IMG/VR virus record: IMGVR_UViG_3300013212_000061
Span: 1-64,000 of that record
DNA from: a virus
Length of the DNA stretch: 64,000 nt
Direction: 5' to 3' (one strand)
The notes beneath the pieces were generated by a model that made no database searches, had not been told where the DNA came from, and was given only the letters and a program-made list of their open reading frames with translations. Positions 9,782 to 56,661 of the stretch are shown one piece after another; the stretch's first letter is position 1; every line of letters begins with the position of its first letter. The translations under genes were made by a program, and so were the position numbers.

Positions 9782-9829
9782 ATGAATATTTTAGATGAAG
9801 CAAGCGGAATTGTAAATAACCGCTCATAA
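9782..9829 (+). pseudogene. Truncated 5' copy of the gene at 10583
   Basis: Encodes MNILDEASGIVNNRS and stops. The intact gene at 10583 begins MKNILEEANDIVNNRSEEAD. The two N-termini match at 11 of 15 residues, but the DNA differs at many third positions, so this is an old paralogue or remnant rather than a fresh duplication. The copy ends 5 nt before the hairpin of the GIY-YIG cassette, which suggests that insertion of the endonuclease unit truncated it. Confidence 0.6.
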
Positions 9830-9834
9830 TTTTT

Positions 9835-9901
9835 AAAGGTCCCTTTTACATAGATATTTATTTAGTTTGGTCGCTAAAATGATCTTCTTAAGGGACCTTT
9901 T
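9835..9901 (+). other. Hairpin element preceding GIY-YIG gene (copy 1)
   Basis: Perfect 11-bp stem AAAGGTCCCTT (9835-9845) / AAGGGACCTTT (9890-9900) with a 44-nt loop containing TTTGGTCG. A closely related element (11-bp stem, 45-nt loop, same TTTGGTCG) precedes the other GIY-YIG gene at 55855. It can act as a terminator, but the conserved loop suggests it is part of the mobile cassette. Confidence 0.65.
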
Positions 9902-9946
9902 ATTTAGATGATATATAGTATGACCAACTAAATAAAATTATATCAT

Positions 9947-10533
9947 ATGTACATCTATAAGATAACTAACCTCATCAATAACAAAATCTATATTGGTCTA
10001 TCTACAAAATCAGTAGAAGAATCAACCAAATACTACGGTTCCGGTATATTAATTAAAGAAGCTATCCAAAAATATGGCAAAGAAAACTTTACTAAAGAGA
10101 TTATTGAAAACCATATAGAGAATTTCGATACTCTTAAAGTTAGAGAAATCTATTGGATAGAGTATTTTAAATCATATGCATCTTATGATAATTATAACCT
10201 AACACTAGGCGGAGATGGCTCACTAGGATTAAGTCCAACTAAATTTACTAAAAATAAAATATCTAAAACTTTAAAAGGATATATCCATTCAAAAGAAACT
10301 AAAGAAAAAATGTCTAATTCTGGAAAAGGTAGACAATTCTCAGAAGAAACCAAAGATAAATTATCTAAATCAAATAAAGGTCAAAAAGATCAGAAAAAAC
10401 AAAAGAAAATATATCAAAATCTTTAAAAGGAGTACCAAATCCTAAAAAGAACGTTCAATGCACTTTTTGCAACAAAATCGGAGCAAGTAATAACATGAAT
10501 AGGTATCATTTTAATAATTGTAAAAATAAATAA
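9947..10533 (+). pseudogene. GIY-YIG homing endonuclease, frameshifted
   Basis: The N-terminus has the GIY-YIG fold signature MYIYKITNLINNKIYIGLS, then YWIEYF, followed by NUMOD-type repeats (SKETKEKMSNSGKGRQFS). The intact frame stops at 10426. Restoring one A in the A tract at 10383-10387 lets the frame continue as RSEKTKENISKSLKGVPNP and end in a zinc-finger-like CTFCNK...HFNNC tail at 10533. The gene is therefore probably inactivated by a 1-nt deletion, or the sequence has an error there. It is a free-standing endonuclease inserted next to a truncated gene copy. Confidence 0.8.
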
Positions 10534-10582: not shown

Positions 10583-10879
10583 ATGAAAAACATTTTAGAA
10601 GAAGCAAACGATATCGTTAATAATCGATCAGAAGAGGCAGATAGACAGTACGGAGAATTCTCAGAAGGCATGGACCGAGCTGCAATGATTTTTAAAGGTA
10701 TGACCGGACTTGAAGTTACTGGCGAACACATGTTTAAAGCACTAGTTGCACTTAAATTCTCGAGAGAATCATACAATCACAAGCGTGATAACTTATTAGA
10801 TGCAGTTGCATATATCCAAGGATTAGACAATTACATCGAAGAAAACAAGAATGATATAGATGATGCTTTCAATGGTTAA
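10583..10879 (+). CDS. Small phage protein (DUF6378-like)
   Basis: 98 residues. The segments MDRAAMIFKGMTGLEVTGEH and FSRESYNHKRDNLLDAVAYI match my memory of a small helical family common in phages (DUF6378). Function unknown. Its 5' end has a diverged truncated copy at 9782, on the other side of the GIY-YIG unit. The next gene overlaps its 3' end. Confidence 0.7.
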   Translation: MKNILEEANDIVNNRSEEADRQYGEFSEGMDRAAMIFKGMTGLEVTGEHMFKALVALKFSRESYNHKRDNLLDAVAYIQGLDNYIEENKNDIDDAFNG

Positions 10880-53371: not shown

Positions 53372-54016
53372 ATGTCAGAAAATAAAAGTATAAAAGACCA
53401 GGCAGAGGATATCCGAAAGGACCTAGATGAGTTAATTGGAGCCAGCGCCGGAGAAATATCTCAAGTAATCGAAACTGATGTAGAACTTCCAGCAAGAAGA
53501 CCTCAAAATCATGTCAGTTTTGCTGAACTTAAAGAGAGCTCTACCAGAAAGGCTAAGAAAACTATTACCGCCTTAATGAAGTTCTACTTAGACGCAGATA
53601 TTATAGAGCAAGACGAGTATATTCAAGCTAAAAAGAAGATGGACGAAATGACAATGAGTTCATTAGTCTATCAACTTCAAGCCGGAGAGCGGGCTCTTAC
53701 AACCCTATTGGATGCTATTGAAGATGGAGAAGTTGCACCAAGAATGTTTGAAGTACTGGCAACACTACAAAAATCAATGCTCGATATAATCAAATCTCAA
53801 ACAATGTATTTAATGGCAACTGAAGAAAGTGCCAAAAGAATTGCAAGAGATATTGAGATATACAGAAAACGAGATAACATCAGAGAAATAGAAGTTTCAG
53901 GTGGAGACCCAGGCTCAGGAAATGTTCAAAGAGGTACTAAAGACCTAATGAGAATGATTCGCGAAGGAATTGATTCTGCCGAAACTGACGTTCAAGATGT
54001 TGAAATAACCGAATAA
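53372..54016 (+). CDS. 16: Small terminase subunit (gp16-like)
   Basis: 214 residues. A long helical core (KKTITALMKFYLDADIIEQD, then SSLVYQLQAGERALTTLLDA and QKSMLDIIKSQTMYL) fits the coiled-coil oligomerisation region of T4 gp16. Acidic N- and C-terminal tails. It is 1 nt before the large terminase, the T4 arrangement. Recognises DNA and regulates packaging. Confidence 0.75.
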   Translation: MSENKSIKDQAEDIRKDLDELIGASAGEISQVIETDVELPARRPQNHVSFAELKESSTRKAKKTITALMKFYLDADIIEQDEYIQAKKKMDEMTMSSLVYQLQAGERALTTLLDAIEDGEVAPRMFEVLATLQKSMLDIIKSQTMYLMATEESAKRIARDIEIYRKRDNIREIEVSGGDPGSGNVQRGTKDLMRMIREGIDSAETDVQDVEITE

Positions 54017-54017
54017 T

Positions 54018-55853
54018 ATGTCAAATGAAAACTATATAGGTGATAATAAATGGATCCCTAGTGGAGATTCAGAAAAGGATGCACAAAAACTAGTATGGTC
54101 AACTAAGATTATTAATGACTTAATGGTTGCCTTGGATAAAGGTTATAGACCCCAAGTCAGTATGCCTTTCTACGAAGGAAAACAATTCTTACGTAGAGGT
54201 AATATTGTATTTGAGTATACTGAAGCAGAACTTAAAGAAATTACAAAGTGCGCAAATGATATTGTTTACTTTGCAGAGAAATATGCAGTTGTAATGACTG
54301 ATAATGGTATTCAACAAGTAAAACTTAGAGAATACCAAAAAGACCTATTAAGGGACTTTCAACACAACCGATTTAATATTGTCCTAGCATCCAGACAGAT
54401 GGGTAAAACTGTAACTGCCAGTATTTTTAATGCATGGTACCTTACATTTAACTATGACAAAACAACCTTACTACTTGCAAATAAATCTGAATCAACAAAA
54501 GAGATTATTGACAAGGCTAAAGTTGTAATTGAGAACCTTCCATTCTTTATGAAGCCGGGAATTATCAAATATGATGTAATGAACGTAAGGGCTGATAATG
54601 GTTGTAGACTTGTTGGTCAGTCAACTACAGCTAAGTCAGGTATTGGTTTTACTATTCACAATTTATATCTTGATGAGTTTGCTCACGTTCATCCAACGAT
54701 TGTAAACTCATTCTATGAAAACGTTTACCCTACACTTTCTGCCTCAAAGATTTCTAGAATCAATATTACCAGTACACCAAATGGATTTAATAAGTTCTAT
54801 GAAATTTATTCCGATGCTGAAAAAGGTAATAATGAGTACAAAGCAACCCGAATAGATTGGTGGCAACATCCTGATAGGGACGATGCTTGGTATAAAAGAG
54901 AACTTGGAAACTTAGGTTCTGAGGATGCTTTTAATAGACAATATGGTAATGAGTTTACCAGCTCATCTAGTTTATTGCTAAGTCCTGGTACGATGAAAAA
55001 TATCAGAAAGAATGCTAAGAAATTTGTTTGGCATGATATTGAAGAGTTTGAAAATGCCCATATTGATACTCAAGGATTCCTTTCATTTAACCCTGGCTTT
55101 GATATTGAAGAGGCCGCAAACGAAGAAAAATATTACCTATTTACAGTTGATATTGCAGAAGGGAATGGAGGAGACTATTCGGTTATAAATATGTTTGAAG
55201 TTGAACCACTTCCGGATAAAGACATAGAAAATTATATTAATCCAGGAGCGATGTATGATTTTTTTAGAATTAATCAAGTTGGAATATTCCGAAGCAATGA
55301 GCATCCAATCGAAGACTTTGCAAAAATCTTATACATATTGGCCCTTGATGTATTTAATGCTGAAAATGTTAAATTGATTATTGAATATAATACTTATGGA
55401 AGTATCTTATTACAGTACCTTTCAACAGTTTTCCCAGGGAGAAATGAATTTGAAGATGAATTGGTCCTAAGATTTAAACATCGACATGATGCAAAAGCAC
55501 CAAAACCTGGAATTAGATTAAAGTCTGATAATAAATCAGTTTTCTGTCAAAACTTTAAAAAGTTTATAGAAATTAATCGCGTTAAGATAAATGATATACA
55601 AACAGTCCAAGAGGCCAGTCTTTTTGGAATCGTTAAAAATGGAAGCTATGGAGCCCAGATGGGAAATGATGATTCAATCATGACATGCATTACAGCAACT
55701 GAATTTTTTACAACGGTAGATTATGCAGATTATGTTGAAGAGCTATTGGATATTATAGAACCTGAAAAGCACTCACTTATGGAAAAAATATTATATAAAA
55801 ATAATGATTTTCAAGGAGATTTACAATTTGATATTTATTCATTACTAGACTAA
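54018..55853 (+). CDS. 17: Large terminase subunit (gp17-like)
   Basis: A 611-residue protein, same size as T4 gp17 (610). ASRQMGKT (about 124-131) is Walker A; LYLDEFAHV is Walker B with catalytic Glu; ITSTPNG is the coupling motif; FTVDIAEGNGGDYS (about 374-387) opens the RNase H-like nuclease domain, with further acidic residues downstream (DDSIMT). It pumps and cuts DNA during headful packaging. A GIY-YIG cassette follows directly. Confidence 0.93.
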   Translation: MSNENYIGDNKWIPSGDSEKDAQKLVWSTKIINDLMVALDKGYRPQVSMPFYEGKQFLRRGNIVFEYTEAELKEITKCANDIVYFAEKYAVVMTDNGIQQVKLREYQKDLLRDFQHNRFNIVLASRQMGKTVTASIFNAWYLTFNYDKTTLLLANKSESTKEIIDKAKVVIENLPFFMKPGIIKYDVMNVRADNGCRLVGQSTTAKSGIGFTIHNLYLDEFAHVHPTIVNSFYENVYPTLSASKISRINITSTPNGFNKFYEIYSDAEKGNNEYKATRIDWWQHPDRDDAWYKRELGNLGSEDAFNRQYGNEFTSSSSLLLSPGTMKNIRKNAKKFVWHDIEEFENAHIDTQGFLSFNPGFDIEEAANEEKYYLFTVDIAEGNGGDYSVINMFEVEPLPDKDIENYINPGAMYDFFRINQVGIFRSNEHPIEDFAKILYILALDVFNAENVKLIIEYNTYGSILLQYLSTVFPGRNEFEDELVLRFKHRHDAKAPKPGIRLKSDNKSVFCQNFKKFIEINRVKINDIQTVQEASLFGIVKNGSYGAQMGNDDSIMTCITATEFFTTVDYADYVEELLDIIEPEKHSLMEKILYKNNDFQGDLQFDIYSLLD

Positions 55854-55854
55854 T

Positions 55855-55925
55855 AAAGGTCTCTGATACTACGTTATATTTGGTCGTTCTTTGTTTCATA
55901 AGTATACCTCCAGAGACCTTTTTAA
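55855..55925 (+). other. Hairpin element preceding GIY-YIG gene (copy 2)
   Basis: Perfect 11-bp stem AAAGGTCTCTG (55855-55865) / CAGAGACCTTT (55911-55921), 45-nt loop with TTTGGTCG, followed by T. It starts 1 nt after the terminase stop. Same design as copy 1 at 9835, including the TTTGGTCG in the loop. Confidence 0.65.
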
Positions 55926-55980
55926 TTTCAATAAGGAAATAAAGATATATAGAATAACGACTAAATATAATTATTAACTT

Positions 55981-56583
55981 ATGATAAAATATCACTATGT
56001 GTATAGAATAACTAACACAAAACTCAACAAACACTATTATGGTTCAAGAACATCTCAAATAGAACCTGCAAAAGATTTGGGACATAAGTACTTTTCAAGT
56101 TCTTTTGATAAAGAATTTATCAAAGACCAAAAGAACAATCCACAGGATTATAAATACGTGATAGTTTCTAAATTTAATTCACGAAAAGAGGCTCTAGAAT
56201 TAGAAGTTAAACTACACACAAAATTTAACGTAGGAGTTAACAATAATTTTTATAATAAAGCTAGAGCAACTTCTTCAAAATTCACAATGGAAGGAACCAA
56301 AATATCGGAAGAAACTAGACTAAAGCATATTGGCGAAAATAATGGAATGTATGCTAAAAATCATACAATTGAATCTAGAATTAAAATGAGTCAATCTAGT
56401 AAAAATCCATCCGAAGCTACTCGAAAAAAAATGTCTGAAAATCATGCGGACGTTTCAGGAGATAAAAATCCAATGTATAATAAAAATCATACAATTGAAT
56501 CTAGAATTAAAATGTCAAAGCCAAAGACCGAAGAACATCGTCGCAAAATGTCCGAAGCGGCAAAAAGAAGATACTCTAAATAA
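55981..56583 (+). CDS. GIY-YIG homing endonuclease
   Basis: A 200-residue protein. YHYVYRITNTKLNKHYYGSR carries the GIY-YIG core in the form YVY...YYG with the catalytic Arg; Glu follows in ALELEVKLH. The C-terminal half has NUMOD3-type repeats (NNGMYAKNHTIESRIKMS and NPMYNKNHTIESRIKMS). Free-standing between terminase and sheath genes, with the same upstream hairpin and AT-rich leader as the copy at 9947. Unlike that copy, it is intact. Confidence 0.85.
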   Translation: MIKYHYVYRITNTKLNKHYYGSRTSQIEPAKDLGHKYFSSSFDKEFIKDQKNNPQDYKYVIVSKFNSRKEALELEVKLHTKFNVGVNNNFYNKARATSSKFTMEGTKISEETRLKHIGENNGMYAKNHTIESRIKMSQSSKNPSEATRKKMSENHADVSGDKNPMYNKNHTIESRIKMSKPKTEEHRRKMSEAAKRRYSK

Positions 56584-56661
56584 AAAGACATATACGATTT
56601 ATTGGTATAAAATCCATTTTAATTTAGATATCTAATAAAAGAAAAAAATATAATTAAAATT

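Follow-up and report, generated by a model that had tools for sequence, protein, structure and literature searches.

We found that two homing endonuclease genes of an uncultivated T4-like virus are each preceded by a terminator-like hairpin whose loop is an antisense copy of the gene's own 5' leader, and often of its start codon too, a feature absent from the preliminary description of this DNA. A promoter-like box, GATATATA, sits between the stem and the leader in both cases, and the same element is found ahead of both GIY-YIG and HNH homing endonucleases in related viruses. The element is likely to be an expression lock of the free-standing endonuclease gene, made of a terminator and a translational lock. 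Across this uncultivated T4-like group, it would probably allow expression only when transcription begins at the gene's own late promoter. It is the complementarity of the loop to the leader and start codon, across the promoter, that points to expression control.

The stretch analysed, hereafter the window, comprises 64,000 nt of the 80-kb viral record IMGVR_UViG_3300013212_000061, which belongs to a T4-like virus as judged by its terminase, sheath, portal, capsid and protease. Its terminase shares 45% identity with that of an uncultivated 462-kb phage and about one third with those of named Bacteroidota and Sphingomonas phages. The relatives used for comparison (L numbers) are metagenomic contigs, many of them short, located via protein search.

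Anatomy of the two elements

The features of the two elements are as follows.

9835..9900, + strand: stem S1 of element 1, terminator-like, exact arms 9835-9845 and 9890-9900 (AAAGGTCCCTT/AAGGGACCTTT), loop 44 nt; supported by covariation
9847..9872, + strand: loop anti-leader of element 1, complementary to 9922-9951, start codon included; predicted RNA duplex -23.0 kcal/mol, z -4.4 against shuffles
9910..9917, + strand: promoter-like box GATATATA of gene 1, from the box distribution in the window
9918..9946, + strand: leader of gene 1, predicted mRNA 5' end as placed from the box, by analogy with T4 late promoters; would be paired by the anti-leader in read-through RNA
9947..10426, + strand: gene 1, GIY-YIG/NUMOD3 homing endonuclease, frameshifted (phrog_314, 8e-37; NUMOD3)
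55855..55921, + strand: stem S1 of element 2, terminator-like, exact arms 55855-55865 and 55911-55921 (AAAGGTCTCTG/CAGAGACCTTT), loop 45 nt; supported by covariation
55873..55888, + strand: loop anti-leader of element 2, complementary to 55956-55971 in 16 contiguous pairs, one of them G-U; predicted duplex -18.6 kcal/mol, z -3.7
55944..55951, + strand: promoter-like box GATATATA of gene 2, from the box distribution in the window
55952..55980, + strand: leader of gene 2, predicted from the box position and the duplex
55981..56583, + strand: gene 2, GIY-YIG/NUMOD3 homing endonuclease, intact, 200 aa (phrog_314, 5e-26; NUMOD3)

The 11-bp perfect stem and the 44- or 45-nt loop that had been reported ahead of both GIY-YIG genes are exact, and the motifs named for loop, box and leader are present, with TTTGGTCG in both loops (at 9866 and 55879) and ACTAAATA common to both leaders. 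The compensated differences between the two stems amount to two pairs (columns 8 and 11), so that their earlier rendering as "CCCTT versus TCTCTG" was slightly overstated. The arrangement AAGGTC-N30..58-GACCTT occurs twice in the window against 0.07 expected, and a search of the 80-kb record with a longer form of the motif returned only these two elements. The encoded proteins are ordinary members of their families, the HNH relatives matching phrog_655. Gene 1 carries a frameshift near 10383-10395, missed by the preliminary description, so its second half, a zinc-finger-like tail (CTFCNKIG...RYHFNNC), continues in another frame to 10533; this reflects either decay or a sequencing error.

The form of S1, an A-tract, a GC-containing stem and a U-tract, matches that of the phage's ordinary terminators except for the length of the loop. 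Intrinsic terminators of T4 have loops of about 4 nt (PMC2988022), and the ordinary terminators in the window have loops of 4-22 nt, as compared to 44-45 nt in the S1 elements; among the seven terminator-like sites on the + strand of the window, only the two at the endonuclease genes have a loop above 22 nt. Insulation of the neighbouring genes by the stem, as proposed earlier, is plausible from this form. Elsewhere in the window, the box comes after ordinary short-loop terminators.

The significance of GATATATA, which is a phage-wide box, had been overlooked. There are 12 copies on the + strand of the window and none on the - strand, nearly all of them directly ahead of gene starts, mostly 25-46 nt upstream. 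Among the genes behind the box or a close variant are those for the head protease, major head protein, tail tube, sheath and a tail fibre, and because these are virion genes, we infer that GATATATA is probably the late promoter of the phage. In every element, the box is placed such that the predicted RNA would start without the upstream antisense strand. For the sheath gene, the box at 56627 is GATATCTA in the window, and almost every relative has GATATATA there.

An antisense copy of the leader in the hairpin loop

In both elements and in their relatives, the stretch from GATATATA to the start codon recurs in the loop as its reverse complement. The antisense is bipartite, with one part pairing the first nucleotides after the box (core TAACNACAAA) and the other the start-codon region, while the leader stretch between the two paired parts is looped out. 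A loop-leader RNA duplex was predicted in all 19 elements (z -2.7 to -8.7 against shuffles); it covers the AUG in eight of them and stops a few nucleotides short in the remainder.

Because the antisense is part of the S1 loop while its leader partner follows S1, the two helices would have a pseudoknot topology if they form together. Fitting an anti-leader duplex of more than 20 bp into the loop while S1 is closed may meet steric difficulty, and S1 and the antisense helix are therefore perhaps alternatives. Nested folding by itself is unable to represent both at once; for some elements it gave S1 with a local hairpin, for others the antisense helix. For every element, the start codon was less open than in the late RNA, and many elements with S1 formed have a second structure that closes the start region. 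The predicted cost of opening the start codon was 7.9 kcal/mol in read-through RNA versus 1.1 in late RNA for the endonuclease genes, and 4.2 versus 1.4 kcal/mol for other genes, several of which also differ between the two RNAs. Start-codon accessibility alone splits the two classes less sharply than the anti-leader does. The duplexes, the opening energies and the covariation described below all predict an RNA structure that occludes the start. A box-driven gene at 53372-54016 of the window (MSENKSI...), with relatives in L188, L191 and L196, also has a start that is clearly less accessible in read-through RNA, and a strong anti-leader is absent there.

Covariation of the two helices

The claim that the pairing is conserved although the sequence is not was borne out over 16 distinct elements, for which we scored the 11 pairs of S1 and the 10 pairs of the TSS-proximal core of the loop-leader helix, S2. 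Plain MAFFT alignment of whole elements put S1 out of register, and helix blocks were aligned instead. In these blocks, 98.2% of cells were paired, as compared to 71.4% when shuffled and 34-49% with the partner slid; because the manual block alignment was guided by the pairing and excluded the bulges of W1 and L165, this percentage is biased towards the structure. Changes on both sides were found in 15 of the 21 pairs, and several positions use all four Watson-Crick pairs. The covariation score was 0.740, against 0.170 for shuffles and 0.047-0.134 for slid partners, and swapping the 3' halves among elements lowered the number of paired cells from 330 to about 240 of 336. Inside the helices, cells that are not Watson-Crick are mostly G-U, while true mismatches are found at helix ends, as expected for RNA pairing. 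At position N of TTTGTNGTTA/TAACNACAAA all four Watson-Crick pairs occur, a result independent of the hand alignment, given that N was unconstrained in both strands of the search pattern.

Association with homing endonuclease genes

Two patterns were used to examine which genes the element accompanies. The first included the anti-leader, assumed no gene and left N free on both sides; it was found in 17 contigs, all with a homing endonuclease (two HNH, the others GIY-YIG), and N was complementary at every endonuclease locus with four different bases used. The second, GATATATANNNTAACNACAAA, assumes neither anti-leader nor gene. Here, the antisense was present at 15 of 15 distinct endonuclease loci (energy -19.7 or lower) and at none of eight other distinct loci (-9.3 or higher), including two related loci at which a non-endonuclease gene has the same leader core. 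In these two (L318 and L320), the gene (MERI.TFKTF...) carries the core GATATATAAGTTAACGACAAA without antisense. When 79 non-redundant genes with the GATATATA box were scored for an anti-leader, 18 of 27 endonuclease genes and none of 52 others reached at least the cut-off of 25.1 (p = 5e-8). The first pattern had zero matches in cellular genome contigs.

The preliminary description had made the presence of the hairpin at other GIY-YIG loci a test of its proposal, and the outcome is mixed: many have the element and some are without it. Endonuclease genes with the box and no lock are found in L086 (at the same terminase site), L118, L270, L278 and L176, and a related gene of the huge phage LR756500 likewise has the box without the lock. 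The element is absent from six named T4-like and other phages that were checked (RB16, phiKT1024, Lw1, nt-1, ACP17 and ValKK3), the RB16 locus having an ordinary short-loop terminator instead. Another form of lock, in which a plain stem encloses the box and its 3' arm reaches the start codon, occurs at other endonuclease genes of related viruses, in L268, L272 and L294. Such other forms were recognised by eye on the sequences, these three also by score. A further lock arrangement is seen at endonuclease genes of the cyanophage-like viruses L265, L266 and L279, where an outer stem surrounds a short terminator and an TATAAATA box. No Rfam 15 family matched above its gathering score in the window, and around element 1 the scores were at chance level.

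Insertion of the element and gene as one unit

Comparison of occupied with empty loci, as proposed earlier, identified the following features at the two sites.

9782..9829, + strand: stranded remnant of the resident DUF6378 gene, its 5' end (MNILDEASGIVNNRS-stop), on the left side of insertion 1, junction 9826/9827; nearly identical to the intact gene of the empty-site relatives L295-L297 up to CGCTCA, then diverged
10583..10676, + strand: recoded DUF6378 5' end carried in by insertion 1, right boundary approximate; first ~92 nt strongly diverged from L295, then nearly identical
55830..55853, + strand: recoded terminase 3' end (DIYSLLD-stop) carried in by insertion 2; DIYDLLG-stop in empty-site relatives
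56587..56610, + strand: stranded original terminase 3' end (GACATATACGATTTATTGGTATAA), on the right side of insertion 2; agrees with the terminase end found in empty-site relatives, e.g., L187

At site 1, 14 loci, some of them from near-identical genomes, have an uninterrupted DUF6378 gene and no hairpin. In the window, this gene is broken after codon 15 (NRS), with the fragment left on the upstream side of the hairpin; downstream of the endonuclease stands a complete DUF6378 gene whose first ~92 nt are recoded. At site 2, about 40 relatives have a terminase-sheath junction with a short spacer and neither gene nor hairpin, whereas in the window a recoded terminase tail stands directly before the hairpin and the original tail downstream of the endonuclease. 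L186 keeps the recoded tail while hairpin and gene are both gone, as expected after loss.

The occupied and empty sites and their altered flanks are those of free-standing homing endonuclease insertions, and the sequences fit homing with conversion of the flanks from a diverged donor. No empty site has the hairpin. The hairpin, box, leader and gene behave as one inserted unit, and the suggestion that they move as one element is supported by their co-insertion at both sites and their joint loss in L186; a role of the hairpin in mobility, suggested at the same time, found no support. In L016 and L018, a related GIY-YIG gene without hairpin lies just downstream of a DUF6378-like gene, which suggests that this endonuclease family repeatedly visits DUF6378 genes.

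Proposed mode of action and alternatives

In the proposed lock, S1 and its U-tract would act as a terminator, possibly a leaky one, for transcription from upstream, which would also limit transcription between neighbouring genes. RNA that reads through would hold both strands, and the start codon would be occluded on folding, either in a pseudoknot with S1 or with S1 opened. RNA begun at GATATATA, between the strands, would lack the antisense, leaving the start codon free and translatable. Early or read-through RNA would then leave the gene off, and only its own late promoter would turn it on, with two barriers (the S1 terminator and the closed start) against upstream promoters and none against its own. 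Lock, promoter and gene would travel together as a homing unit.

The antisense sits inside a terminator-like hairpin, where it would be exposed as a loop, and its complement is the extreme 5' end of the predicted late mRNA. These two features would also suit an action in trans, in which upstream transcripts end at S1 and the hairpin-protected 3' loop pairs with the late endonuclease mRNA, limiting translation even late. The terminated upstream RNA would itself be the regulator of a self-limiting selfish gene, and its RNA lock would be exchanged between unrelated nuclease families. We regard this as unlikely; the plain hairpins around the box in L268, L272 and L294 can work only in cis on read-through RNA. 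Since inverted repeats flank the box, and since I-TevI uses an operator to repress the late promoter of its own gene (PMC2988022), the repeats might alternatively act as DNA, binding the endonuclease or another protein, which would repress the endonuclease promoter. This is improbable: the same leader core precedes GIY-YIG and HNH genes despite their different nuclease families, the mostly G-U departures inside the helices would be meaningless for a DNA palindrome, and RNA pairing accounts better than a dyad operator for the bulges and for the uneven spacing of the two parts.

It is very improbable that S1 is only an insulator, a terminator that shields the neighbouring genes with an incidental loop sequence. 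Its stem and U-tract are indeed like those of the phage's ordinary terminators, but its loops are longer, at 44-45 nt against 4-22 nt, and the covariation between loop and leader already contradicts an incidental loop. We give still less credence to the hairpin as a recombination or transposition signal that aids movement of the unit. It does border the insert on the left at both sites; however, homing with conversion of the target-gene ends accounts for the ends, the stem sequences vary widely among elements, and the related gene at the same site in L086 has no hairpin.

Relation to known systems

The expression lock that we favour resembles those of I-TevI, I-TevII, I-TevIII, segB and Aeh1 mobE, whose early RNA is held off by structures missing from the late RNA (PMC2988022, PMC3014915). 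As in those systems, the putative promoter lies between the two strands of the predicted inhibitory structure, such that the long RNA would be locked and the late-promoter RNA open, and a homing endonuclease gene lies downstream. In the I-TevI-type lock, a simple hairpin takes up the start region in its 3' arm, whereas here the antisense is bipartite and located in the loop of a separate terminator-like stem, with a putative pseudoknot topology; the plain form is that of L268, L272 and L294. Furthermore, one leader core recurs here before GIY-YIG and HNH genes, the box is GATATATA rather than TATAAATA, and Shine-Dalgarno sequestration is not visibly applicable.

The T4 genes e, soc and 49, which are late genes locked on early RNA (PMC3014915), follow the same off/on logic by promoter position, but they are phage genes with simple hairpins, not mobile elements. 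The PeSLs (promoter-early stem-loops) of T4-like phages (Arbiol 2010; Comeau 2014), as described in PMC4503421, share a terminator-like stem-loop followed by a promoter and a link to gene shuffling; the promoters described there are early. The present element differs in its probably late box, its long antisense loop and its association with endonuclease genes. Termination also lowers endonuclease RNA in mobE and segF (PMC2988022), where the terminators are located within the coding sequence and no antisense loop has been reported for them. In open-licence papers, we found no description of antisense in a terminator loop for homing endonuclease genes. What is known is the off/on logic; what appears new is the predicted terminator-loop pseudoknot architecture that recurs across two nuclease families.

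Only a handful of homing endonuclease genes, in T4 and related phages, had previously been known to be controlled by a sequestered start. The present element is a recurrent, covarying RNA element of uncultivated viruses, in two nuclease families, in which termination and an antisense lock would be combined in one hairpin, and it provides a well-defined case in which to test how a selfish gene keeps down the burden that it places on the phage. The box provides a sequence signature for putative late promoters in this phage group and predicts the 5' ends of late RNAs, while the insertions give fine detail of how such elements restore the end of an invaded gene. Several related endonuclease genes (L004-L010, L272, L276 and L278) are located directly behind tRNA genes, comparable to segB, which lies in the tRNA cluster of T4.
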